This document shows, in pieces, positions 44,609-57,952 of a stretch of DNA of 64,000 bases (the first letter of the stretch is position 1; each line of letters starts with the position of its first letter). Both the position numbers and the translations under genes were made by a program. The stretch lies in NCBI RefSeq assembly GCF_001767395.1, contig NZ_CP017014.1:744001-808000 (forward strand). The letters are read 5' to 3'. The notes beneath the pieces are model-generated. The model worked only from the letters and a program-made list of their open reading frames with translations, was not told the origin of the DNA and ran no database searches. Source of the stretch: Rhodococcus sp. WMMA185 (lineage in GTDB: Bacteria > Actinomycetota > Actinomycetes > Mycobacteriales > Mycobacteriaceae).

Positions 44609-46585
44609 ATGGCCACCGAACCGCAATGGATGCCAACTGAAGCTGACGTTCGCAACGCGGCGATTACCGACTTCGCCGCGTTCGTGTCTCGGCGCCACGG
44701 TGTCACCGTTGACGACTACCAGGCGCTGTGGCATTGGTCGGTGTCCGACCCGTCCGCTTTCTGGCAGGACATTTGGGATTATTTCGACCTCAGGTCGGCA
44801 ACGGAATTCGGGCCCGCCCTGGCGGACGACTCCATGCCGGGAGCGGTCTGGTTTCCCGGTGCCGCGCTCAATTACGTCGACCAGGTCTTCCGCAATGCAC
44901 GCGCCGACGGGCCGGCGATCATCTACGCGGGTGAGGCGGCCCCGGACCGGACGATCGGATGGGACGAGCTGCGGACGCAGGTCGCGGCCCTCGCCGCAAC
45001 TTTGCGTGAGAACGGCATCGGGGTGGGCGACCGCGTCGTCGGATACCTTCCCAACATTCCGGAAGCCGTCATCGCCTTCCTTGCGACGGCTTCGCTCGGG
45101 GCGGTGTGGGCGGCGTGTGGACAGGACTACTCGGCGCCGGCCGCACTCGCTCGCCTCGGTCAACTCGAGCCCAAGGCGTTGATCACCGCAGACGGCTACC
45201 GGTTCGGAGGCAAGGCGCACGATCGGCTCGATGCCGTATCCCACCTGCGAGACGAGTTGCCGAGCCTTGCCCTCACCGTGGTGACGCCGAACCTCGGTGC
45301 AGCGCCAGTCGACAGTGCAGCGGCAGGCGACGGTGCAATGACAGCCGACGGCATCGTATCCTGGACCGAGGCGACCGACCGAGACGCGGAGCTCGAGATC
45401 ACCGACGTCCCGTTCGACCATCCGTTGTGGGTGGTTTTCTCCTCGGGCACCACTGGTAAGCCGAAGGGAATCGTGCACGGTCACGGCGGTGTGCTCCTCG
45501 AGCACGTGAAGTCGATGGCTCTGCAGTTCGATATCGGGCACAAAGACACACTGTTCTGGTACACGAGCCCGAGTTGGATGATGTGGAACTTCCAGACGGC
45601 GGGGCTGCTGGTAGGGTCCACCATCGTCTGCTACGACGGAAGTCCGTCGTTTCCGGCTCCGGATGCGTTGTGGTCCTTGGTATCACGGCTGGGCGTGACC
45701 GTAGTCGGGACCAGTCCGGCGTACATCCTCGCATGCGCCAAGGCCGGGGTGGTACCCGTGCGCGAGCACGATCTCGGTGCGCTCCGCGCTGTCGGCGTCA
45801 CGGGGTCGACCCTTCCTGCGGAATCGTCACTGTGGTTGTCCGAGAATGTCGGTCGCTCCGTTCCGGTCGTGAGTATCACCGGCGGGACCGATGTGGTGTC
45901 GGCGTTCATCGGAGGAGCACGGGTTGTCCCGGTATGGCCGGGCGAGTTGTCGGCGCCATACCTCGGGGCTGCGGTCGACGCCTTCGACGAGTCGGGCAGG
46001 CCGGTCCGGGACGAGGTCGGCGAGCTCGTCATCACGGGACCGATGCCGTCGATGCCGGTATCGTTCTGGAACGACCCGGACGGAAAGCGTTACCGAGAAG
46101 CATATTTCGACTTCATTCCGGGTGTGTGGCGGCACGGTGACTGGATCACGATCACCGGTCGGGGGACTGTCCAAATGCATGGCAGGTCGGATTCCACCCT
46201 GAACCGCAATGGGATTCGAATGGGAAGCGCCGATATCTACCAAGTGGTGGAGAAGATTCCGGAGATCGCAGAAGCGTTGGTGATCGGTGTGGATCTCGAG
46301 GACGGTGGGTATTGGATGCCGCTCTTCGTGGTCCTCGTGGGCGACGCGGAACTGGACGAAGACTTGAAAGACCGGATTCGCGGAGCAATTCGCGAGCAGG
46401 TGTCGCCCCGCCATGTGCCCGACGACATCATCGCCGCTCCCGGTATACCGCATACGCGTACGGGCAAGAAGCTGGAAGTTCCCCTCAAGAGGATCCTTCA
46501 GGGTGCCGATGTGCGTCGCACAGTCGATGCCGGTGCCGTCGACAACCCCGACCTGCTCGACTGGTTTGTTCAGTTCAGGCGGTGA
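44609..46585 (+). CDS. Acetoacetyl-CoA synthetase
   Basis: This is a 658-residue acyl-activating enzyme that ligates acetoacetate to CoA with ATP. Features are WFPGAALNYVDQVFRN near 90, the nucleotide loop VVFSSGTTGKPKGIVHGHGG near 275, SPSWMMWNFQTAGLLVGS near 317 (typical of acetoacetyl-CoA synthetases), WRHGDWITITGRGTVQMHGR near 510, and the catalytic Lys of HTRTGKKLEVPLKR near 620. It is in the family's length class and starts at an ATG after GGGAAGG. It lies 51 bp after the thiolase gene and probably shares its transcript. Confidence 0.92.
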   Translation: MATEPQWMPTEADVRNAAITDFAAFVSRRHGVTVDDYQALWHWSVSDPSAFWQDIWDYFDLRSATEFGPALADDSMPGAVWFPGAALNYVDQVFRNARADGPAIIYAGEAAPDRTIGWDELRTQVAALAATLRENGIGVGDRVVGYLPNIPEAVIAFLATASLGAVWAACGQDYSAPAALARLGQLEPKALITADGYRFGGKAHDRLDAVSHLRDELPSLALTVVTPNLGAAPVDSAAAGDGAMTADGIVSWTEATDRDAELEITDVPFDHPLWVVFSSGTTGKPKGIVHGHGGVLLEHVKSMALQFDIGHKDTLFWYTSPSWMMWNFQTAGLLVGSTIVCYDGSPSFPAPDALWSLVSRLGVTVVGTSPAYILACAKAGVVPVREHDLGALRAVGVTGSTLPAESSLWLSENVGRSVPVVSITGGTDVVSAFIGGARVVPVWPGELSAPYLGAAVDAFDESGRPVRDEVGELVITGPMPSMPVSFWNDPDGKRYREAYFDFIPGVWRHGDWITITGRGTVQMHGRSDSTLNRNGIRMGSADIYQVVEKIPEIAEALVIGVDLEDGGYWMPLFVVLVGDAELDEDLKDRIRGAIREQVSPRHVPDDIIAAPGIPHTRTGKKLEVPLKRILQGADVRRTVDAGAVDNPDLLDWFVQFRR

Positions 46586-46772
46586 AAGCGATCGGCGCCA
46601 CGGATGGCTCGAGCCTGGCATTCGAGCGGGCAAGTGCTTCCAAGTGGTGCGAGAACCTGCTTTGCCGGTATCGAGACGGTGACAGCGCGCCGCGCGTAAA
46701 CTTCGGGTAGACGGTCGCAAACTGTGCTGGATGTGTGCCCGACGCGGCCGCATGAGAATCATGGGGGGCGGC

Positions 46773-47522
46773 ATGGTCATCGACTACAACCAAGGCCTCA
46801 TCGCTGAGAAGTACGAGAAGACCAAGGACTTTCCCGTCCGATCCCGAATCGAGGCGTATTCCTTCCTGAAGCACGTCGGCGACGTGGAGGGCAGGAAGGT
46901 TCTCGACGTCGCGTGCGGGTGCGGGGATTTCACCCGAGTTCTGCGCCGAGCTGGTGCCTCCCCGATGGTGGGGCTGGACATCTCCGAAAAGATGATCGGC
47001 CTGGCACGAGAAGAGGAGGAGCGGGAACCGCTGGGCATCGAATATATCGTTGCCGATGCCCGCTCGGTTGTGCCGCAGCAGGATTTCGACGTCGCGGTCG
47101 CGGCCTACCTGCTCATGTACGCGCAAGATCGAGACGAACTCGGGCGCATGTGTCGTGGCCTGGCGTGCCGCGTGAAGTCGGGAGGCCGCTTCGTCACCAT
47201 CACCACCAATCCGGACTTGTACTCGTTTGAGCGGGTGCCCAACTACCGCAAGTACGGATTCGAGATAGAGCTGGCCGAGTCCGTTTTTGACGGAGCGCCG
47301 ATCACGTTGACGGCGATCCTGGATGATTCCTCCCTGGCGATCGTGAACTACTACCTTCCGATCGCCGCTTACGAATCGGCCTTCCGTGATGCAGGCTTCC
47401 GTGATTTCACGGTGCACATGCCCGAACTGTCACCCGCGCCCACGGCAGACGACGAGGGAGACTACTGGGACGACTATCTGAATTATCCACCCGCAGTGGT
47501 CATGGAGTGCATCCGGGATTGA
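46773..47522 (+). CDS. Class I SAM-dependent methyltransferase
   Basis: This is a 249-residue methyltransferase. The SAM-binding motif I is VLDVACGCGDFTRVL at about residues 42-56, with an acidic end of strand 2 in GLDISEKMIGLA. The post-I region IEYIVADARS and motif IV (FDVAVAAYLLMYAQD) follow. The C-terminal half forms the substrate lid. The acceptor is unknown. The ATG at 46773 follows GGGGGGCG at a fitting distance, and an earlier ATG at 46752 would add seven residues. It stands near the pap-type genes but on the opposite strand, so cluster membership is uncertain. N-methylation of an arylamine (as PapM does in pristinamycin biosynthesis) is one idea without direct support. Confidence 0.8.
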   Translation: MVIDYNQGLIAEKYEKTKDFPVRSRIEAYSFLKHVGDVEGRKVLDVACGCGDFTRVLRRAGASPMVGLDISEKMIGLAREEEEREPLGIEYIVADARSVVPQQDFDVAVAAYLLMYAQDRDELGRMCRGLACRVKSGGRFVTITTNPDLYSFERVPNYRKYGFEIELAESVFDGAPITLTAILDDSSLAIVNYYLPIAAYESAFRDAGFRDFTVHMPELSPAPTADDEGDYWDDYLNYPPAVVMECIRD

Positions 47523-47727
47523 CCGTTGCGCTGAGAGTATTTGTCTTGCAATTGATCATGAGACCTTGGATGAGCTCTGCGGTGTTGGCGGGAAGTCCAA
47601 CAGCAATAGAACCGAGACCTTTCTGATGCAGGGAGTTCCGATTTCCACAGGGCGAGATCACGTCTGACGTACTGCAGGTGTGTCATGAGTATTGCCCCGA
47701 TTGCGCCGGGTGCGCGATAGTGAGGTA

Positions 47728-49164
47728 GTGGGGGAAGTCGATTTGTGCTACGCCTCGATCTCCGATCTGTCTCGGGACTTTGACAGCGGGGTGTTGTCCC
47801 CTGTGGAGGCGACCCGAGCCCATCTGGAGCGTATCGATCGGCTCGACCCTGACCTGAACGCCTACGTGACGGTCATGGAGGAGAACGCTCTCGCGGATGC
47901 GAGGCGGGCCGAGCAGGAGATCTCCCGCGGCGAACACCGGGGACCCCTTCACGGCGTTCCGATTGCCGTGAAGGATCTGGTCTGTACGGAGGGCGTTCGG
48001 ACCACCGCTGGTATGCCGATCCACCGAGACTTCGTCCCCAGCTATGACGCAACGGTGGTTTCTCGACTGCGCCGTGCCGGAGCAGTGCTGCTGGGGAAGC
48101 TGAACCTGACCGAGGCTGCTGGAGGTGAGTACCATCCCGACCTCCCTGCGGTGGTGAATCCGTGGAACTCGAGTTTCTGGGCCGGGGCGTCATCGAGCGG
48201 CTCTGCCGTCGCCACCGCGACCGGAATGTGTACGGCCAGCCTCGGAAGCGATACGGGCGGCTCTATTCGCAACCCGTGCAACATGAACGCAGTCACCGGC
48301 ATCAAGCCGACATGGGGACGTGTCAGCGTCCATGGCGTGTTCGCGATGGCGCCGTCGCTGGACGCTGTCGGACCGATGGCGCGAAACGCCGAGGATGCGT
48401 ACCACATGCTGCGAGCCATCGCCGGTCCCGACGTGAACGACCCGACCGCCGTCAGGGCTGAGGTACCCGACTACTCCGTGGGTCCGCCCGAGATGCAAGG
48501 GATACGGATCGGGTTCGATCCAGAGGCCGCGTTCGACGGTGTCGAGCCCGCGGTGGTGAAGGTCGTGCGCGATGCGCTGGCAATGTTGGAGAGCCTGGGC
48601 GCGGACATTCGTCAGGTGTCGCTGCCGTCCACAATGGGGCTGGCAGCCGGATGGGGCGCCTACGCGGGGACCGAGGCCGCAGTTGTGCACGAAGAGACGT
48701 TTCCGTCCAGGTCCACGGAATACGGTCAGTGGATGCGGGAGCTCCTGGGTTCCGGGTACGCGGTGTCGGGTATGGATATCGCCCGCATCGAAAACGAGAG
48801 GCGACTTTTCGCCGGGAAGCTCGCGGGACACTTCGAGAACGTCGATCTACTCGTTCTTCCCGTCTTGCCCTTGGCTGGTTTGACGCTCGATCGCTTTACA
48901 CGGTTGCTGTACGACTCCGACGATCTGCCGACCGTCTTCCGGTACACCGCCCCGTTCAACTTCTCCGGCAACCCGACGATCACGCTTCCGGGCGGCTTCG
49001 ACGAATCCGGCGTGCCGATCGGTTTTCAACTCGTGGCGCGCCACCTCGACGAGCTACTCCTGGCTCAGGCGGGAAGTGCCTTTCAGAGTGCGACCGACTG
49101 GCATCTTCGCCGACCACCGTCCGTGTCGGTGTATGAGTTGTCGATGCCGAAACCTGCCTCGTGA
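47728..49164 (+). CDS. Amidase-signature family hydrolase
   Basis: This is a 478-residue serine hydrolase of the amidase-signature family. The Ser-cisSer-Lys triad is visible: the Lys in PIAVKDLVCTEG near residue 82, the cis-Ser in GASSSGSAVATATG near 155, and the nucleophile Ser in LGSDTGGSIRNPCN near 180. It hydrolyses an amide or acts as an acyltransferase, substrate unknown. The start is uncertain: GTG at 47728 is given here, while TTG at 47743 has a better-placed ribosome-binding site (GGGGAA) and would shorten it by five residues. Its stop is 9 bp from the stop of the convergent diiron oxygenase gene, so the two gene sets abut tail to tail. A role in the same pathway is possible. Confidence 0.85.
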   Translation: MGEVDLCYASISDLSRDFDSGVLSPVEATRAHLERIDRLDPDLNAYVTVMEENALADARRAEQEISRGEHRGPLHGVPIAVKDLVCTEGVRTTAGMPIHRDFVPSYDATVVSRLRRAGAVLLGKLNLTEAAGGEYHPDLPAVVNPWNSSFWAGASSSGSAVATATGMCTASLGSDTGGSIRNPCNMNAVTGIKPTWGRVSVHGVFAMAPSLDAVGPMARNAEDAYHMLRAIAGPDVNDPTAVRAEVPDYSVGPPEMQGIRIGFDPEAAFDGVEPAVVKVVRDALAMLESLGADIRQVSLPSTMGLAAGWGAYAGTEAAVVHEETFPSRSTEYGQWMRELLGSGYAVSGMDIARIENERRLFAGKLAGHFENVDLLVLPVLPLAGLTLDRFTRLLYDSDDLPTVFRYTAPFNFSGNPTITLPGGFDESGVPIGFQLVARHLDELLLAQAGSAFQSATDWHLRRPPSVSVYELSMPKPAS

Positions 49165-49173
49165 TCGGCCGGG

Positions 49174-50127
49174 TCAGGTCCACTGGAACGACATCTCTTC
49201 AGCCACACCGAGATTCCTGCAGAGCTTGTGGATTCCGCTGAAGTCTTGGACCAGCTTCGAGTGGCTGGTGTCGTGCTCGGCGTCGTCGATCATCGCGTGG
49301 CCGCCCTCGAGTTCCATGAGTTCGACGATTGTGCGCCACGTGGAGTAGTCGTTGCTGCTGAATGCGTTCATCGCATGGACAAGTCCGTCCAGGAAGTGGC
49401 GACGTTCGTCGGGCCTGAGGGTGTCGTAGACGATGCCTGCGATCTCGTCGGCGATCGAGGAATGGCAGTATTCGTCTCGGTTGTGCAGTCGCACCGTCGC
49501 CCGATTGATCGGTTGTATGACGTCGTTCTCCGAAATCAGGTCGAGGTACGAGCTGATCGAGACCTCGGCCACCGTCATGAATGCAAAGAGGGAGATCGCT
49601 TTTCGCCTGGAGTCGGGGTCGGCAGCCGCCACCTCGCGCTGACGGCGCAATGTCATGACATCGGGCAGGGCGTCGTTCGGTAGGGCCCACCCTCGCTGTC
49701 TTCGGGTGACCGCACTGGCATTCAAGTGCATGAGCGTGTGGTACTGCTCATCCACCATCGCTTGGTGCACGGCCAGGGCGAATGTGTCACCGAGTCCGGT
49801 GTCCAGACCGTCGTGCGCAACGAGATCGAAGCCGGGATTCACGACGTACTGTTCGATGTCCATGACGTTCTTGTTGAAGGCGATCCACGCCCACGCCCGC
49901 AACTGGTCCTGCTGGTCGTCGGTCAGTCCGAGGAACCGGTCATGGTCGGCAAAGGGCAGCAACTCGTTCGGGTAGTCCCGCTTGTCGCGATCGAATAGTT
50001 CGTCGAGGTCCGGTTCCGGCTTCTTGACGGTGGCCCGCTGCCCCCAGTTTCGGACCAGCCGAGTGATCACGGCGCTCTCGACCGGATCGGTCGGGTCGTG
50101 TTCCGGAAGCGAGTGCTGAGGACTCAT
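49174..50127 (-). CDS. AurF-family diiron arylamine N-oxygenase-like protein
   Basis: This is a 317-residue helical protein. It has every iron ligand of AurF (p-aminobenzoate N-oxygenase) in register: E92, E127 and H130 (ExxH), E188, then H215, E219 and H222 (HxxxExxH). AurF uses E101, E136, H139, E196, H223, E227 and H230, so the offset is a constant 8-9 residues. Such enzymes oxidise arylamines to hydroxylamines and nitro groups in aureothin, chloramphenicol (CmlI) and obafluorin pathways. Its start overlaps the papC-like stop by 4 nt, which links it to a supply of 4-aminophenylpyruvate or 4-aminophenylalanine. Substrate and extent of oxidation are inferred. Confidence 0.85.
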   Translation of the reverse strand: MSPQHSLPEHDPTDPVESAVITRLVRNWGQRATVKKPEPDLDELFDRDKRDYPNELLPFADHDRFLGLTDDQQDQLRAWAWIAFNKNVMDIEQYVVNPGFDLVAHDGLDTGLGDTFALAVHQAMVDEQYHTLMHLNASAVTRRQRGWALPNDALPDVMTLRRQREVAAADPDSRRKAISLFAFMTVAEVSISSYLDLISENDVIQPINRATVRLHNRDEYCHSSIADEIAGIVYDTLRPDERRHFLDGLVHAMNAFSSNDYSTWRTIVELMELEGGHAMIDDAEHDTSHSKLVQDFSGIHKLCRNLGVAEEMSFQWT

Positions 50128-51062
50128 GACGAGTCTCCTTTCCTTTCCCGCGAACGGGGCGCTGTGCGGTGAAGGCGTTTATCGCTGAACAGATCGGCAC
50201 ACAGCTCGGCAAGGGGTACCTTCTGGTCGCCGAGGGCCGATGTCGCTCGCGACATCAGTGAGGCGAAGTCGTCCTCCGATCCGTGCTCCACGGTGTCGAC
50301 TACGGCCGTCAAAGCGGTGATCAGTGCGCGGCGGGCTTCGCCGGCGAAAGGATTGCCCACCTGGATGTCTCGGTACACCTCCGGTACCCCGCTGCCGACA
50401 CGGGCAAGAAGCGCGAGAGACACGAGATGGGGCGGAGCGCCTACCTCGGCCAGTTCGGCGCCGTCCACACCGAGTTCGGCGAGGGCGAGGCCGAACCCGA
50501 GAACCGCGGCGTGGGTCAACGCTTGAGTGGATGCTGTGAGCCGGTCGTGGTGCTCGGCGTCCAGGTGCACGACCGACGACCCCCACCCGGACAGCGTCGA
50601 CAGGAACCAGGCGACATCGCCGAGATCCCGATACGTCACCGCCGCGATCGGGCGACCTGCCGGATCGAGCGAGGGCGCGAACATCGGGTTGATACCTACT
50701 GCGCTGTTACGCAGTGCACTCGCGCGTAGCGCCGCGTCGAAACGCGACTTCACCGACAGCGTGTCGACGAGGAGAGCACCGTCAGCCAACAGTGCGACGG
50801 CGGTCGGGATCGATTCCAAGGCAACGACCTCGGGGACCGCGAGGATCACGGCGTCTGCCCCCGCGATGACCGACCGGACCTCTGGGGAAGGGTCGGTGAC
50901 ATCACCTTTCACCTGGTCGGCGTCCGACCGGTCGGTGAATCGGACATCGATGGTGCGAACCGTGTGCCCATCGCCGCGCAGACGGTCCACCAGCATCCTG
51001 CCTACGTCACCGGAACCGCCGATCACGGCGACGGTTCGAGCAGACGAGGCCGGGCCGTTCAC
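50124..51062 (-). CDS. papC: PapC-like 4-amino-4-deoxyprephenate dehydrogenase
   Basis: This is a 312-residue protein of the prephenate dehydrogenase family. The N-terminal NAD site is VAVIGGSGDVGRMLVDRLRG. Then come AVILAVPEVVALE and VDTLSVKS, the conserved catalytic/substrate region GINPMFAPSL near residue 120, and a His in TQALTHAAVLGF near 180 that fits the dimer/substrate domain. In this context it should oxidatively decarboxylate 4-amino-4-deoxyprephenate to 4-aminophenylpyruvate, as PapC and CmlC do. The GTG at 51062 is chosen because it overlaps the papA stop as GTGA. A much longer frame to 51818 is read-through. Ordinary tyrosine biosynthesis is the alternative, but the neighbours argue against it. 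Confidence 0.82.
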   Translation of the reverse strand: MNGPASSARTVAVIGGSGDVGRMLVDRLRGDGHTVRTIDVRFTDRSDADQVKGDVTDPSPEVRSVIAGADAVILAVPEVVALESIPTAVALLADGALLVDTLSVKSRFDAALRASALRNSAVGINPMFAPSLDPAGRPIAAVTYRDLGDVAWFLSTLSGWGSSVVHLDAEHHDRLTASTQALTHAAVLGFGLALAELGVDGAELAEVGAPPHLVSLALLARVGSGVPEVYRDIQVGNPFAGEARRALITALTAVVDTVEHGSEDDFASLMSRATSALGDQKVPLAELCADLFSDKRLHRTAPRSRERKGDSS

Positions 51063-53131
51063 TGCCCGATCTCGTTCGGCCTGTCCGCGGTCACCGCCAG
51101 TGCTCGCAACATGGTGGCGGCCTTGATCATCGCCTCGTCGAATTCCGATTCCGGATCGGACAACGCCGTGATAGCACCGCCGATGCCGAAGGTCACCTCC
51201 GTGTCGGTGGCAACGATGGTGCGAATCACGATCGACAGGTCGGCGGCACCGTTCAATGAGAAATAGCCGATCGAACCTGAATACACGCCTCGCGCCCCCG
51301 ACTCGAGGCGATCGATGATCTCCATGGTCCGGATCTTCGGGGCACCGGTCATCGAACCACCGGGAAAGGCGGCTCGGACGCACTCGACGACGGAGGCATC
51401 CGCACTGAGAGTTCCACGCACGGTCGATACGAGCTGATGAACAGCGGCATACGTTTCGACATCGAAGAGCTTGGGCACGTGAACGGAACCGGGGATGCAG
51501 ACTCGGGCCAGATCGTTGCGGGTCAGGTCTACGATCATCAGATTCTCGGCACGATCCTTCTCGCTGTCGAGCAGGTCCTGCCGTAGTGCCGCGTCCTTCG
51601 CGGGGGTGACGCCGCGGGGTCTCGTTCCCTTTATGGGTTTGGACTCGACCGACCGGTCCGCACGGATTTTCAGGAACCGCTCGGGGGAGGCACTGAGTAC
51701 CGACATCCCCGAGAACTGGAGATAGGCGCTGTACGGGGTGGGGCTGATGGACCGCAGTAGTTCGAACGTGCGCAGGGGATCGATCGATTGGTCCACGCCC
51801 GCCATGTTGGTCAGGCACACCTCATAGGACTCGCCGGCCCTGATCTCCTCTTGCGAGGAGACGATGTGTTCGAGGTACTTGTCGTGTTCGTGACGCAGAG
51901 AAAGCTCGGCGGAGTCGGGTTTCCTGATCGGTGACACAGTGCCTGACGAATGGTCCGGTTCGGCCAGTCTGTGTAGAGCCGTCTCCATTTCATCGAGCCA
52001 TCGGTGCTGTTCGGGGTCATCTTGTTGATCACTCAGGCACAGCGCGTAGGTGCGCTGGGCGTTGTGGTCGATGATCACCGCGCGATCGGCGAACACCAGC
52101 GCGGCGTCCGGGGTGGGCGAGTCGTGGACCGCGCCGCCGCCGGTCTCGGACTTGAGTTCGTATCCGAGATATCCCACGTAGCCGAGGCTGAACGGCACGC
52201 CGGGAAGACCTGGCACCGATCGGGCCTGCAACTGTCGCTCGAGATAGTCGAAGAACGGCGCATGCACCTGTTCGACGGGCAACCCCTCGCGCGCAATCCG
52301 AACGATCGACTCACTGACGTCGTACGTGATGTATTCCGCGCGGGGGCCTGAACAGTTGCCCATGATGGTGAAGCGGGAGTCTGGCTCGGATGCGGAAGTG
52401 CCATCGAGCCAGAACGCGTTGGGCCCGTCCGCGAAGAGGTCCTCGAAGGTGGTGCGCGGGTCGACCTCGTGGTCGACCCGCACTTTCTGGATGACATATG
52501 GCGCCCGGGGAATCGGTATCTTGCGCATCGTGCTGCGCTGCGGTGTGCCGGAATGCGTCGGTGTCAGGTCCCGGAAGTTCGCGAGCAGCTCGTGCCCGAA
52601 GGCGGTGCTGATGGATTCAGGGTGGAACTGCACGCCGAACAGAGGTCGAGTCCGATGTCGAACGCCCATCAACAGTCCGTCATCGGTCCAGGCTGTGGCT
52701 TCGAGGTCGTCCGGTAGATCCCGGACGATCAGCGAGTGATAGCGAACCGCGGGAAACGGTGACGGGATTCCGGCGAAGAGTTCGGAACCATCGTGGTCGA
52801 CGAGGGACACCCGTCCGTGCATGGGTTCGGGTGCGAGGACGACGCTGCCCCCGAATAGTTGGCAGAGTCCCTGGTGGCCGAGGCACACCCCGAGTATGGG
52901 GAGTTCGGTCTCAGCGATGATCCGGGCACTGATGCCGAAATCGCGCCGGCGCTCGGGCCGTCCGGGTCCGGGCGAGATGACGATGTTGTCGAACTCGGAC
53001 CAGGGGATCGAATCCCATTCCACGTCGTTGTGCACGACAGTGGGTGGCTCGCCGTTCACCTCTGCGAGCAGTGTGAACAGGTTGTAGGTAAAGGAGTCGT
53101 AGTTGTCGACCAGCAGCGTCCGGGTACTCAT
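51059..53131 (-). CDS. papA: Fused aminodeoxychorismate synthase (PabA-PabB), PapA-like
   Basis: This is a 690-residue fusion. The N-terminal glutamine amidotransferase (about 1-190) has nucleophile C83 in GVCLGHQG and H170/E172 in FHPES. The C-terminal chorismate-using domain (about 215-680) contains PIKGT with K501. That lysine marks aminodeoxychorismate synthase. Anthranilate synthases have PIAGT instead. It makes 4-amino-4-deoxychorismate from chorismate and glutamine. A folate role is possible for such an enzyme, but there is no PabC lyase nearby. Instead, mutase and dehydrogenase genes overlap it by 4 nt on both sides, which points to 4-aminophenylalanine-type secondary metabolism. Fused forms are usual in chloramphenicol and pristinamycin clusters. 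Confidence 0.88.
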   Translation of the reverse strand: MSTRTLLVDNYDSFTYNLFTLLAEVNGEPPTVVHNDVEWDSIPWSEFDNIVISPGPGRPERRRDFGISARIIAETELPILGVCLGHQGLCQLFGGSVVLAPEPMHGRVSLVDHDGSELFAGIPSPFPAVRYHSLIVRDLPDDLEATAWTDDGLLMGVRHRTRPLFGVQFHPESISTAFGHELLANFRDLTPTHSGTPQRSTMRKIPIPRAPYVIQKVRVDHEVDPRTTFEDLFADGPNAFWLDGTSASEPDSRFTIMGNCSGPRAEYITYDVSESIVRIAREGLPVEQVHAPFFDYLERQLQARSVPGLPGVPFSLGYVGYLGYELKSETGGGAVHDSPTPDAALVFADRAVIIDHNAQRTYALCLSDQQDDPEQHRWLDEMETALHRLAEPDHSSGTVSPIRKPDSAELSLRHEHDKYLEHIVSSQEEIRAGESYEVCLTNMAGVDQSIDPLRTFELLRSISPTPYSAYLQFSGMSVLSASPERFLKIRADRSVESKPIKGTRPRGVTPAKDAALRQDLLDSEKDRAENLMIVDLTRNDLARVCIPGSVHVPKLFDVETYAAVHQLVSTVRGTLSADASVVECVRAAFPGGSMTGAPKIRTMEIIDRLESGARGVYSGSIGYFSLNGAADLSIVIRTIVATDTEVTFGIGGAITALSDPESEFDEAMIKAATMLRALAVTADRPNEIGQ

Positions 53132-53562
53132 CGCGACTCCGCATTGGCAGAGGAATCAGCGCCGTGTCGAGTACGGGGGCTGTTCTCGCGGTGGTCTCGC
53201 CCGTTCGTGTCCGGGCTAGGTGCGTCGGCATTGATTACCAAGTCCTCGAGTCGGCATGTTTCGGCGATGAGGAGGTCGTAGAGCGCATCGAAGAACTCGG
53301 GGGACAGTGAGTGGCGGTCGGCGTATTCGCGTGCGCGCTCGTGCACAAAGTCCATACGGCCGGGTTGCATCAGGGGGATGTGTTCGCGGCGCTTCAATTC
53401 ACCGATGCGCAAGCACACTTCAAGGCGTTGGCGAACCGCGTCGAGGAGAGCCGCGTCGACGGTGTCGAGTTCTGTTCGCAGAGTGTCGAGCGTGTGCTCC
53501 GCGGGCGATTCTGGCTCCTCTCCGGAATCGTCGCCGTTCCGTCGCCCAAGGGAGAAGTGCAT
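53128..53562 (-). CDS. papB: PapB-like 4-amino-4-deoxychorismate mutase (AroQ fold)
   Basis: This is a 144-residue protein with one AroQ-type chorismate mutase domain at about residues 25-110. The long first helix (LDTVDAALLDAVRQRLEVCLRIGELKRR, split across 29-56) supplies the active-site Arg and Lys, followed by PLMQPGRMDFVHERAREYA. The C-terminal 30 residues are hydrophilic and probably disordered. In context it should rearrange 4-amino-4-deoxychorismate to 4-amino-4-deoxyprephenate. The ATG at 53562 is placed five bases after GAGG. It is the first gene of the papB-papA-papC-aurF unit, and its stop overlaps papA by 4 nt. A plain chorismate mutase cannot be excluded from sequence alone. Confidence 0.82.
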   Translation of the reverse strand: MHFSLGRRNGDDSGEEPESPAEHTLDTLRTELDTVDAALLDAVRQRLEVCLRIGELKRREHIPLMQPGRMDFVHERAREYADRHSLSPEFFDALYDLLIAETCRLEDLVINADAPSPDTNGRDHRENSPRTRHGADSSANAESR

Positions 53563-53816: not shown

Positions 53817-55040
53817 TCAATTGCCCAATAGCACCGACATCATCAGTGTATGGAGGCGAGCACGCGACTCAGCGCGGGTGTCGAAGCGCATCAGGCGACC
53901 GATGTCCAAGACCAGACCAAGAGCCGCGTGAACGAGAAACCGCGCCTCCGGTGCCGTAAGTTCGGGCCGCACCGCGGTCAGGAGGTTGACCCATTCCTCG
54001 ATATGCCGCCGCTGGACGTGACGCAGATTTGCGCGTTCGTTCTTCGGTAGGTTGCCGATTTCGGCAAAATAGACCGTGAGCACTTCCGGGTTCCGGAATG
54101 ACAATTCCAGATAGGACTCCGCAAGGGCCCGGAGAGCATCGCCGGGACCGGTGGCGGCAAGCGCGGCGGACGTCGCGACTGCCATACGGTCGCCCGCGCG
54201 GTAGAACACAGCCGCCAGAAGGTCTGCCTTACTGGGGAAGTGCCGATACACGCTGGAGGCATTGATACCCGCGGCAGCACCGATCTCCTCGATACTCGAG
54301 TCGTGGTACCCGCGACGGTCGAAGATCTTCTCGGCCGCGTTGATCAGTAACTCTCGCTTGGACGTCACCGCGAAACCGTGTGTGCTGGGCGCTGTGACCG
54401 CGGCATTCGCCGAGTCGTTGGGGACCGCAGGAGGGAGGGTCGTGAAGAGGACGGATTCGCACGCCGCCCTGAGCAGAGAATCGAGCCGGCGCATGGCGAG
54501 GGTCGTGTGGTGGGCACTGATACTGCCCATCACGCTCAGTGCCGAGGCACTCAATGTCGTCGCGTCGACGGCTGGGAGTTCCGGGCGGAGCTCACGCAAT
54601 GGCGCGGCCAGAGACTGGGTTACGTGGGCGAAGATGTCGCGGATGCGCGTGTGATCCTCGCCCTCGAGGTACCTGCTTTCCCAGCGGTAGAGTCCAGCGA
54701 CTTTACGGTTCTCGATGGACGTCTCGACGAGCGAGGCGATCAGACGATCGAGTCGATCTCGGGGGTCGCTGCCGTTCGCGCTCTCGAGCGCGCTGTCGGC
54801 TGCAGCCTGCAGCGCATCCGCGGCCGTGTTGGCCGCGTGCACCAGCAGCGCGTACTTGCTGGGATAGTGCCTGTAGAGCGCTGGCCCCGAAATGCCTAGG
54901 GTGGCTGCGATCTCGTCAACTCCGACGGCGTGATAGCCACGTTCGTTGAAGGCTTCGGCCGCGACCCTCGCAATTTGTGCCTTGCGATTCTTCGGCCGAC
55001 GGCGGATCGGAGTCTCGGTTGCCGTGCCGGTCCGGGTCAT
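53817..55040 (-). CDS. Tandem TetR-family regulator (two TetR units in one chain)
   Basis: This is a 407-residue protein made of two complete TetR-like units. The first helix-turn-helix (VDEIAATLGISGPALYRHYPSK) is at about residues 41-63. The second (IEEIGAAAGINASSVYRHFPSK) is at about 249-271. Each is followed by a helical ligand-type region, so the monomer may act like a built-in TetR dimer. The ATG at 55040 sits five bases after a strong GGAGGT, which decides it over the GTG two codons upstream. It lies between the exporter genes and the pap genes, all on the minus strand, and is the obvious local regulator. The ligand is unknown. Confidence 0.9.
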   Translation of the reverse strand: MTRTGTATETPIRRRPKNRKAQIARVAAEAFNERGYHAVGVDEIAATLGISGPALYRHYPSKYALLVHAANTAADALQAAADSALESANGSDPRDRLDRLIASLVETSIENRKVAGLYRWESRYLEGEDHTRIRDIFAHVTQSLAAPLRELRPELPAVDATTLSASALSVMGSISAHHTTLAMRRLDSLLRAACESVLFTTLPPAVPNDSANAAVTAPSTHGFAVTSKRELLINAAEKIFDRRGYHDSSIEEIGAAAGINASSVYRHFPSKADLLAAVFYRAGDRMAVATSAALAATGPGDALRALAESYLELSFRNPEVLTVYFAEIGNLPKNERANLRHVQRRHIEEWVNLLTAVRPELTAPEARFLVHAALGLVLDIGRLMRFDTRAESRARLHTLMMSVLLGN

Positions 55041-55073
55041 GGTCACCTCCGGTAGTCGGCTGTTGCATGCCGA

Positions 55074-55326: not shown

Positions 55327-56175
55327 CTACCCCGGGGTTCCGGCGGCTCTGCGATACCCGCGAATGGCCGGATAGGCGAAGATCAAGAATCCGGCGGCTG
55401 ACCACGCAATTGTCTTGAGCAGAGGTTCTGCGACAGGTCCGCCCAGCGACAGGCCCTTCATCGCGTCGATGGCGCAGGACATCGGCTGATTCTCCACGAA
55501 CGACTGCAGCCATGTGGGGTAAGCCCCGGTGGGGACGAACCCCGAGTTGAAGAACAACAAGAGCGTGGCCAATATGGAGAGGATCTCGACCAGGGGTGCC
55601 TTGGCCGCGTTGACGGCGAGCGCGGTCACCATCGTCGCGAAACTGACGCCGAACAGCAGCGGCAGTAGCATCAGGGCGATGCCGGCGAGTATGCCCTGGT
55701 CGAACCGGAACCCGAGCGCGAAACCGACGGTGATGATCAGCACGGTGGTAATCAAGATCCGCACGGATTCGGCCATCAGACGGCTGAGAAGGCCTGAAGC
55801 CCGGTGGACCGGAAGAACCCAGAACCGGCTCAAGAGCCCGTCCTGCCATTCCTTCTTCAACGACAACCCACCCGCGATGGACCCGAACATCGCACCCACG
55901 AGCGTGATCATCGGAACGGTCCCGAAGATGCTGTCGACACCGGTCGCGCTGGTGATGGAGATTCCCAGCACGGCCCAGAACATCACCAACATCAACGCCG
56001 GGTACACGATCGCCTGAATCATCGTGTACGGGTCCCGGATCCAGCGCAGTAGCAGTCGTCTGGTCTGCAACAAGCTGTGCGAGTAGAGCGCGGCCAGAGA
56101 GTTTTCCGCGTGCGGTTCGACTACCTCGGGAAATGTCACGCTTGCCGGTGTCTCGGATCGGTACTCGGTAGTCAT
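55327..56175 (-). CDS. ABC-2 type exporter permease (DrrC/DrrB-like), second permease
   Basis: This 282-residue membrane protein has six predicted helices and a soluble N-terminus of about 45 residues. Typical features of drug-export ABC-2 permeases are the GSIAGGLSLKKEWQDGLLSRF region after helix 2 and the NSGFVPTGAYPTWLQSFVENQPMS motif before the last helix. It would form a heterodimer with the permease encoded at 56172-56987 and use the ATPase at 56984-57952. The ATG at 56175 overlaps that permease's stop (ATGA). About 280 bp separate it from the tandem TetR gene and contain no gene I can support. Substrate is unknown, and the neighbouring pap-type cluster product is a candidate. Confidence 0.88.
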   Translation of the reverse strand: MTTEYRSETPASVTFPEVVEPHAENSLAALYSHSLLQTRRLLLRWIRDPYTMIQAIVYPALMLVMFWAVLGISITSATGVDSIFGTVPMITLVGAMFGSIAGGLSLKKEWQDGLLSRFWVLPVHRASGLLSRLMAESVRILITTVLIITVGFALGFRFDQGILAGIALMLLPLLFGVSFATMVTALAVNAAKAPLVEILSILATLLLFFNSGFVPTGAYPTWLQSFVENQPMSCAIDAMKGLSLGGPVAEPLLKTIAWSAAGFLIFAYPAIRGYRRAAGTPG

Positions 56176-56987
56176 CCGCGCCTCACATTCGCCCAGATCG
56201 ACAACGGAACGAAGACCAGTGCCAGCCCGCCGCACCACAGCAGGGTGGGTGTCAACAGGTCGAGGGTGATCGTTCCGTCCGTCATCGCGCGCATGGACGT
56301 GGCGAATTGCGAGATCGGCTGATTTCGGACGAAGCCCTGTGCCCACTCGGGAAACTGCGACGCCGGCACGAATCCGGTGGAGAACATGCCGAGGATCAAC
56401 TGCGGGAGCGTCAACGCCTGGCTGGTGACCTCAGGGCTTCGAGTCAGGGTTCCGAGAGCGTCGGCGCCGGTCGTGAGGGTGAACCCGATCAACATCGCGA
56501 GCGCGCAGAACGCGGCCGTCAAACCCAGTCCGCCGGAGAAACGGAAGCCGATCACGTATCCGTAGGCGATTGCCGCAACGAGCGAGATAGACGAGTGCAC
56601 CAAGCACGCGGTCATACGCGCGGTCAGTGGGACCGCGGCCCCGACCGGCATGGTCTGGAACCGGGCGTTCATGCCATTCGACGCCTCCGTGGCCGCGCGG
56701 TGGGCCGCCGAGATCGCCGTGAATGCCATGGCCTGAAGAACGATGATTGCCATGACGAACTGGGCGTAATCGATGCCCTGGAACTGCATGACCAGGCGCA
56801 GTGGTAGGTAGAAGCCGACGGTGAAGACCAGCGGGGCCAGTACCGCGATGAAGAATTGGCCCGTCCCCCACATCGTGTGCAGGTTCCGTTTGGACAGGGC
56901 AATCCACTGCTGGCTGAGCGTCGGCTGCGGTCGCCTATGCCTTCCCTCGGCCGAACGATGGAATTCGATCAGTGTGGGTGCTGTCAC
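56172..56987 (-). CDS. ABC-2 type exporter permease (DrrB-like), first permease
   Basis: This is a 271-residue membrane protein with six predicted helices. It carries the same conserved end as its neighbour, FSTGFVPASQFPEWAQGFVRNQPIS, split around residue 215. A cytosolic loop around NGMNARFQTMPVG (about 108-120) is where the ATPase docks. The GTG at 56987 was selected because it overlaps the ATPase stop (GTGA). The longer frame to 57191 is antisense-free read-through of the ATPase gene. The three genes are one translationally coupled unit resembling mycobacterial drrABC, which exports phthiocerol lipids. Here no lipid genes are near. Confidence 0.88.
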   Translation of the reverse strand: MTAPTLIEFHRSAEGRHRRPQPTLSQQWIALSKRNLHTMWGTGQFFIAVLAPLVFTVGFYLPLRLVMQFQGIDYAQFVMAIIVLQAMAFTAISAAHRAATEASNGMNARFQTMPVGAAVPLTARMTACLVHSSISLVAAIAYGYVIGFRFSGGLGLTAAFCALAMLIGFTLTTGADALGTLTRSPEVTSQALTLPQLILGMFSTGFVPASQFPEWAQGFVRNQPISQFATSMRAMTDGTITLDLLTPTLLWCGGLALVFVPLSIWANVRRG

Positions 56988-57952
56988 GAGAGCAGGCTCT
57001 CGTCGACGCTGACCTCTCCGGTCAGTGAGAGGAATACGTCGTCGAGTGAAGGCCGCCGCAAGGCGATGTCGGCGAGCGTGATCCCGGCGAGGTCGAGGCG
57101 GCGCAGCACCTCGGTGAGCGTCTGGGCGCCGAATTCCGCAGGAATCGACACCCTGTCGGTACCTTCCTCGAGAATGTGCCCCGGCGGGCACAGGGTCGCG
57201 AGGATGTCCCGGATGCGGGCGAGGTCGTCGAGGCTGACCGGGACGACCTCGCAGTAACTACCGCCTGTGCGGGCCTTCAGTTCGTCGGCCGTACCCTCGG
57301 CGATGACGGTGCCCTTGTCGATGACCACGATGTTGTCGCTCAAGAGGTCGGCCTCCTCGAGGTACTGGGTCGTGAGCAGGACCGTGATGCCCTGCTCCTT
57401 CAACGCGGACACGAGCGTCCACACGCCCTGGCGACTGCGAGGGTCGAGGCCTGTGGTCGGTTCGTCGAGGAACACCACTTGGGGGCGGATCACCAGGCCG
57501 CAAGCGATGTCGACGCGCCGCCGCATGCCGCCGGAATAGCCGGACACTCTGCGGTCGCCTGCGTCCACCAAATCGAACTGCGTCAGCAGTTCCTGGGCTC
57601 GCGATCTCGCGGACCTCTTGGACAGGCCCATCAGTCGGCCGAACAGCACCATGTTCTCTCGTCCGGTCAATGACTCGTCGAGGGCCGCATACTGGCCGGT
57701 CATCATGATGCTGCGACGAACGCCCGCGGGGTTTTCGACGACATCGTGGCCGGCAACCTGGGCGCGACCTGCATCTGGTCGAAGCAGAGTCGACAAGACA
57801 TTGACGGTGGTGGTCTTCCCCGCGCCGTTGGGGCCTAGAATTCCCAGCACAGTGCCGCGCGGTACCTCGAAGCTCACACCCCTCAGCGCTGCCACGTCAC
57901 CGAAGGACTTCTCGATCCCCTCGACGAGAACGGCGGTGTCAGACACAGGCAT
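56984..57952 (-). CDS. ABC exporter ATPase (DrrA-like)
   Basis: This is a 322-residue ATP-binding subunit. Walker A is GPNGAGKTTT at about residues 40-49, the signature motif is SGYSGGMRRRVDIA near 137, Walker B is VVFLDEPTTGLDP near 159, and the H-loop position is replaced by Gln in LLTTQYLEEAD near 193, as in DrrA-type proteins. The C-terminal 100 residues form the DrrA regulatory extension. It powers the two downstream permeases. It is first in the minus-strand exporter unit, whose promoter lies in the 534-bp gap shared with the ribosomal operon. Confidence 0.9.
   Translation of the reverse strand: MPVSDTAVLVEGIEKSFGDVAALRGVSFEVPRGTVLGILGPNGAGKTTTVNVLSTLLRPDAGRAQVAGHDVVENPAGVRRSIMMTGQYAALDESLTGRENMVLFGRLMGLSKRSARSRAQELLTQFDLVDAGDRRVSGYSGGMRRRVDIACGLVIRPQVVFLDEPTTGLDPRSRQGVWTLVSALKEQGITVLLTTQYLEEADLLSDNIVVIDKGTVIAEGTADELKARTGGSYCEVVPVSLDDLARIRDILATLCPPGHILEEGTDRVSIPAEFGAQTLTEVLRRLDLAGITLADIALRRPSLDDVFLSLTGEVSVDESLLS

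Follow-up and report, generated by a model that had tools for sequence, protein, structure and literature searches.

The window analysed here, a stretch of 64,000 nucleotides from Rhodococcus sp. WMMA185 (G000:C1:744001-808000, within a single-contig genome of 4,444,448 bases), contains a papB-papA-papC-cmlI cassette that is a genuine unit and for which the predicted enzyme assignments hold. We think it fairly probable that these four genes constitute an arylamine N-oxidation module, that the lineage of the window has lost the accompanying nonribosomal peptide synthetase (NRPS), and that PapA is shared with folate synthesis. The genes lie on the minus strand and overlap by 4 nt at all three junctions (ATGA at 53128-53131, GTGA at 51059-51062 and the third at 50124-50127), and direct reading thereby confirmed the compact arrangement described in a first-pass annotation of this DNA. 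That annotation had also proposed looking for the same gene order in relatives. In a sample of 28 genomes of the genus, with each locus outside the window read over approximately 20 kb, the same four genes were found in the same order at all 26 other loci, and because of this the cassette is not a chance arrangement.

The first gene, papB (53128-53562), encodes a candidate AroQ-type 4-amino-4-deoxychorismate mutase. Its product matches the Pfam domain CM_2 (5.5e-17, 62 bits) and scores 79.6 against TIGR01803 (CM-like), above the cut-off of 73.35, with the remaining 14 of the 15 models listed falling below theirs; we take TIGR01803 to cover AroQ-like mutases distinct from housekeeping chorismate mutases. 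The papA gene (51059-53131) encodes a PabA-PabB fusion that is by assignment a 4-amino-4-deoxychorismate (ADC) synthase, with GATase, Anth_synt_I_N and Chorismate_bind (2.3e-86) domains, a score of 368.7 against TIGR00553 pabB (cut-off 328.4), and a best PDB match of 794 bits to the ADC synthase 8hx6, presumably PapA of S. venezuelae, the runner-up reaching 218 bits. A KPIKGT motif is present in the window PapA and in 40 other PapA-type fusions of a 50-sequence set, and three TrpE sequences have HPIAGT at this point; PIKGT marks only the ADC type, because the folate PabB of genome G040 carries it too. The product of papC (50124-51062, with a GTG start) resembles prephenate dehydrogenase and is a candidate 4-amino-4-deoxyprephenate dehydrogenase, with PDH_C above its cut-off, PDH_N slightly under, and scores far under the cut-off for every prephenate dehydrogenase equivalog listed. 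The last gene (49174-50127) encodes a CmlI-like candidate non-haem diiron arylamine N-oxygenase that matches the Pfam family AurF (5.5e-49) and scores 254 bits against 5hyg, which we take to be CmlI, and 164 bits against AurF 3chh. Mapping through the 3chh alignment, on the AurF ligand numbering as we assume it to be, places all seven diiron ligand positions in this protein (E92, E127, H130, E188, H215, E219 and H222), and none of them varies across the 14 homologues aligned. This likeness extends to CmlI, AurF and AzoC. Unlike AurF proper, however, the protein lies well under the cut-off of the NCBIfam AurF model for 4-aminobenzoate N-oxygenase, NF045603 (188.8 against 620). The four enzyme classes named in the first-pass annotation are thus upheld by Pfam, NCBIfam and PDB matches.

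The cassette resembles the PapABC/CmlBDC systems of chloramphenicol, pristinamycin and P. fluorescens SBW25 in that a fused ADC synthase, an AroQ-like mutase and a prephenate-dehydrogenase-like enzyme are encoded adjacently. It differs from them in its gene order, papB-papA-papC with cmlI overlapping the end, in its position near the ribosomal S10 locus, and in that its PapA apparently serves folate too. By this likeness, PapA would convert chorismate to ADC, PapB and PapC would convert ADC to 4-aminophenylpyruvate, and a housekeeping aminotransferase would provide 4-aminophenylalanine; the CmlI-like enzyme would then oxidise the arylamine nitrogen, in the free compound or in a later intermediate, to the nitro or nitroso state. 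PapA would stand at a branch point, with its product passing to folate via PabC and to the arylamine compound. PapABC of P. fluorescens has been shown to yield 4-aminophenylalanine in E. coli (PMC4863162). For the cassette, the individual reactions, the supply of folate and the identity of the product are all deduced from sequence, and on that footing the earlier proposal of an N-oxidised 4-aminophenyl-type product is supported.

The cassette is widespread. PapC was found in 27 of the 28 genus genomes, the exception (G019) being only 75% complete, and the matches in G003 and G014 each run through one stop. In a family sample of 301 genomes from 31 genera, PapC (E <= 1e-20) occurs in 100 genomes and nine genera. 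A scan of named genomes made with a CmlI alignment, in which 80 loci were kept of 126, adds Rhodococcus, Rhodococcoides, Prescottella, Streptomyces and others. Removal of duplicates reduced the 126 loci to the 101 distinct ones on which counts of locus types rest; one set of 72 loci held nine duplicates, and the counts given here use the de-duplicated set or one entry per genome. All four genes are present at 51 of the 101 loci, and 24, of the R. fascians type, have papC-cmlI only; eight have PapA and CmlI, 13 have CmlI only, four are without CmlI, and one is a short contig. In R. fascians-type genomes papA lies elsewhere with papB alongside (four of four tested), so that all four genes are still present there, split into two pairs. 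PapA is 56-92% identical to that of the window at most Rhodococcus-group loci and lower at L165 (42%) and L122 (46%); at L046 the CmlI match is split in two, some 69 residues being absent. Judged by the cassette, the nearest named relative of the window genome is R. marinonascens NBRC 14363 (G007), with a CmlI identity of 89%. The eight loci at which a cmlI-like gene and a PabAB fusion occur together resemble the azoxymycin-type clusters of Streptomyces (azoC), and ketosynthase-like genes were seen by eye at three of the four listed (L155, L162 and L187, not L180). These loci differ from the cassette in giving no PapB or PapC match with the window queries and in having PapA only 46-49% identical to that of the window. 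The 13 distinct loci whose CmlI-like gene has no Pap match over the sequence retrieved come from Streptomyces, Nocardia, Actinomadura and Kutzneria (L173, L183, L185, L202 and others).

Most copies of the cassette lie close to NRPS genes. NRPS sequence is present within the approximately 20 kb read at 24 of the 26 other genus loci, as a single protein of 11,257-11,291 aa in the opacus/jostii type (four genomes read at full length) and as three proteins in the erythropolis type (three genomes), one near 2 thousand residues, one near 4.6 thousand and one of at least 7.3 thousand. More broadly, the sequence examined at 52 loci includes an NRPS-type frame of 700 aa or more in 39 cases, and seven of the other 13 have shorter NRPS matches (L055, L057, L060, L062, L063, L114 and L165). 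No NRPS was found in the stretch read in the window or at L041 (R. marinonascens), L064 (G025), L125 (G138), L161 (P. subtropica) and L206 (R. tukisamuensis). The statement in the first-pass annotation that the window has no NRPS is therefore borne out: NRPS queries matched only adenylating enzymes there, at 22-32% identity, with no NRPS remnants at the site. Nor does the C-terminal segment (1396 residues) of the opacus-type NRPS, the only type searched, have an orthologue in the window genome (best match 50% over approximately 1000 residues), in G007 or in G025; among opacus-type relatives this segment is 70-93% identical. The lineage of the window has probably lost the neighbouring NRPS and kept the four genes under selection. 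By Nei-Gojobori-type counting, dN/dS between the window genome and G007 is 0.07 for PapA, 0.10 for CmlI, 0.20 for PapC and 0.23 for PapB, at a dS of approximately 0.5, and all four genes are under purifying selection in this NRPS-less lineage. The corresponding values, in the same gene order, are 0.03, 0.11, 0.15 and 0.05 for the NRPS-bearing pair G026-G004, and 0.04, 0.10, 0.30 and 0.11 for the NRPS-bearing pair G010-G024.

The NRPS neighbours are themselves exchangeable. An NRPS of approximately 11.3 kilo-residues occurs in G037, G040, G043 and G044, which represent four genera where the thresholds applied gave neither PapC nor PapA. Its series of adenylation-domain (A-domain) codes is largely the same in the first three and differs at several modules in G044, where it adjoins ABC genes at the S10 locus, the cassette being absent. 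In G036 (Rhodococcus sp. OK519) and G089, the cassette adjoins another type of NRPS. Since the adjacent NRPS types vary by lineage, and one of them exists without the cassette, the four genes appear to be the constant unit, and this module, shared by Rhodococcus with allied genera, lies mostly near lineage-specific NRPS genes; one specific NRPS is probably not the partner of the cassette.

Rhodococcus sp. H-CA8f is a reported source of corynecins, chloramphenicol analogues with an N-acyl p-nitrophenylserinol structure (PMC9557007, PMC10819586). In published genome surveys, five R. erythropolis strains have a corynecin cluster called at 100% (PMC10819586), and in Prescottella sp. R16 the call is at 40% (PMC10972888). 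The cluster detected in these organisms by antiSMASH is very probably the cassette locus, because the erythropolis-type genomes G001 and G013 each have a single strong PapC match; the copy in the window differs from it in having no neighbouring NRPS genes. The primary corynecin paper (Undabarrena 2021) reportedly concerns the NRPS family that is most widespread in the genus. By structure, we would expect a corynecin to need no giant NRPS. It is conceivable, if on the unlikely side, that the cassette makes the p-nitrophenyl precursors of N-acyl p-nitrophenylserinols, which genes elsewhere would finish, and that the giant NRPSs are bystanders. The producing strain, the cluster calls, the single PapC matches and the variation of NRPS neighbours among lineages all favour this, whereas CmlA_N (PF18456) gave no match in the window genome, a result to be read with the fact that the controls gave none either. 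What the first-pass annotation took for an undescribed stand-alone cassette is thus widespread, usually has an NRPS nearby, and is very probably on record already as part of a corynecin-type cluster.

Pathways of the papABC type feed NRPSs in the biosynthesis of pristinamycin and chloramphenicol, and the cassette might likewise furnish some NRPS with an unusual aryl amino acid, in the window genome in trans to a synthetase encoded elsewhere. NRPS sequence near most genus cassettes is in keeping with this. The window genome encodes several giant NRPSs, and the A-domain codes of one of them, of 8995 aa, resemble those of the NRPS next to the cassette in G036 and G089, with an 8948-aa NRPS less similar. 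Modules were read through A-domains and motifs, 10 of 180 A-domain matches being discarded as shorter than 250 residues. One code, DLWHLILVS/DVWDLILVS, is present in nine cassette-linked NRPS sets read first (G001, G004, G010, G013, G014, G017, G018, G020 and G026), and was considered as the slot for the cassette product. It was rejected in this role, as neither G036 nor G089 shows it in the NRPS beside its cassette. As a marker, the ILVS-type code is no more specific: it was not seen in several cassette-adjacent NRPSs read only in part, the same genomes also carry it in NRPSs distant from the cassette, and the series in the cassette-less G037, G040 and G043 is largely the same. It was the best match in nine of 15 PapC-positive genomes (ten with the ILVG variant) and in five of 15 PapC-negative genomes, two of the latter being without any match, and in a tree with weak support the ILVS A-domains did not group as a single clade. 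With DLWHLILVS also found in NRPSs of genera that have no cassette and in none of the 46 A-domains read in the window genome, supply of an NRPS in trans seems rather doubtful. A literature search on nonribosomal natural products with p-nitrophenylalanine returned no such peptide by title.

The link with folate is suggested by the enzymes that the window genome appears to lack. The chorismate-binding enzymes found there are PapA, TrpE (929 bits, cut-off 693) and one of isochorismate synthase type (248 bits, cut-off 225). A canonical PabB was not found, and PapA scores 230 against NF004530, under the cut-off of 383 (the control, PabB of G040, scores 591.7). The ADC lyase PabC (476 bits, cut-off 278) and PabA/TrpG (388 bits, cut-off 308) are present in the genome; it has two PF01063 genes, one of them PabC, and both lie outside the window, in agreement with the earlier statement that the window has no PabC. 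Since no other ADC synthase was found and PabC is present, PapA, apparently the only ADC synthase of the window genome, probably also supplies folate. This pattern extends beyond one strain. With the folate PabB of G040 as query against 30 genomes, canonical PabB was found in 11 of the 12 that lie outside groups g1, g6 and g16 (57-62% identity, plus G040 itself) and in none of the 18 within them. These 18 comprise 14 of g1, among them the incomplete G019, three of g6, the group to which Rhodococcoides belongs, and one of g16, G042. Eleven of the 18 genomes without PabB, including the window genome, have one PapA-type gene only, and G019 shows none. Four have a second PapA-type gene (G005, G010, G020 and G026), and another PabB-like match lies in a fusion-length frame in each of G004 and G042. 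These second genes (L376 in G005, L378 in G026, L377 in G010 and L379 in G020) are 56-66% identical to the window PapA, show no papB match in the 16 kb read, and may come from other arylamine clusters. PabB is retained beside the cassette in G233 (g27, R. zopfii) and G036 (g10). The chances seem to us evenly balanced that the genus (opacus, jostii, erythropolis and marinonascens) and Rhodococcoides dropped the PabB dedicated to folate and have only PapA-type enzymes for ADC synthesis, in which case folate and a conserved N-oxidised arylamine would share one enzyme, with the arylamine branch near-core and not tied to any one NRPS.

The first-pass annotation had raised the placement of the fusion relative to folate ADC synthases. 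In a tree of the 50 sequences (FastTree, midpoint-rooted, with the characterised PapA outside the set), the window PapA falls among Rhodococcus-group PapAs, apart from TrpE and from folate PabB, and its next neighbours are PabAB fusions of Streptomyces and Nocardia clusters, taken to be of the azoxymycin type. Canonical folate PabB (NF004530, PRK05877), although also ADC-making by assignment, forms a separate clade from PapA. The separation from folate PabB thus stands by phylogeny, yet a separation in function is unlikely, given that PapA is the only ADC synthase found and very likely also serves folate. A literature search on aminodeoxychorismate synthase and folate in Rhodococcus found nothing relevant by title in a partial library. 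That the cassette is kept mainly for folate, with PapB, PapC and CmlI as passengers on their way to loss in an NRPS-less lineage, is nevertheless improbable: PapA is the sole ADC synthase found beside a PabC and the best conserved of the four proteins between G000 and G007, but papB, papC and cmlI are still open frames with dN/dS of 0.10-0.23, R. fascians-type genomes keep papC-cmlI together though papB-papA sit elsewhere, and G036, G089, G233 and G138 have the cassette too while keeping PabB.

Several points weigh against the reading of an arylamine N-oxidation module that shares PapA with folate and has outlived its NRPS neighbour. AzoC, a related enzyme with identities of 37% to AurF and 53% to CmlI, goes no further than the nitroso stage, and the N-oxygenase of the cassette is accordingly not bound to a nitro end state (PMC6783550). 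The cassette could serve an NRPS elsewhere in trans, given the resemblance of the 8995-aa protein to the NRPS of G036. An ADC synthase too distant to be recognised is possible in the window genome. Finally, dN/dS is higher between the window genome and G007 than between G026 and G004 for PapA, PapB and PapC, and higher than between G010 and G024 for PapA and PapB, from which a slight relaxation of PapA and PapB in the NRPS-less pair is possible.

The window has a G+C content of 63.9%, and 315,700 bases of the genome, window included, have 64.7%. At the position held by the NRPS in relatives are two plus-strand genes, encoding an amidase (47692-49164; Amidase, 343 bits) and a methyltransferase (46731-47522; Methyltransf_25, 61 bits). 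The amidase gene has 82.9% DNA identity over 1416 bp with the same site of G007, and because an amidase occupies the site in both, the loss of the NRPS probably predates their split. In R. marinonascens (L041, 14329-16287) the amidase frame as read contains a stop, and fragments of an acyl-CoA synthetase gene adjoin it. At the far edge of the missing segment in the window is an acyl-CoA/acetoacetyl-CoA synthetase-type gene (44609-46585, plus strand; PF00501), which flanks the NRPS in opacus-type relatives, has a DNA match beyond the NRPS in G026, and directly adjoins cmlI in G025. Upstream of the cassette, on the minus strand, a TetR regulator (53817-55046) has two TetR units in one chain of 409 residues, recognised by two TetR_N stretches; such a tandem regulator is also near the cassette in close relatives. 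Between it and rpsJ, a DrrA-like ATPase and two ABC-2 permeases (55327-57952, minus strand; Pfam) form a candidate exporter, and genes of this kind lie near rpsJ in many relatives and adjoin the NRPS without the cassette in G044. Elsewhere in the genome, a second AurF-family gene (G000:C1:113219-114043) lies approximately 13 kb from an 8952-aa NRPS frame; the window CmlI-like protein gave no tblastn match at this locus (1e-15).

Within the searches made, what appears to be new is the NRPS-less variant of the cassette under continued selection, the exchangeable nature of its NRPS neighbour, and a PapA that would be the sole kind of ADC synthase in the genus. If PapA is indeed the sole ADC synthase, a secondary-metabolite gene would be essential across a genus of industrial bacteria, and this would account for how seldom the genus loses the cassette. 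The NRPS-less marine strains offer a clean setting in which to seek the product of the bare cassette, and they prompt one to ask if the corynecin product is rightly assigned to the giant NRPS genes that lie near the cassette in their relatives.

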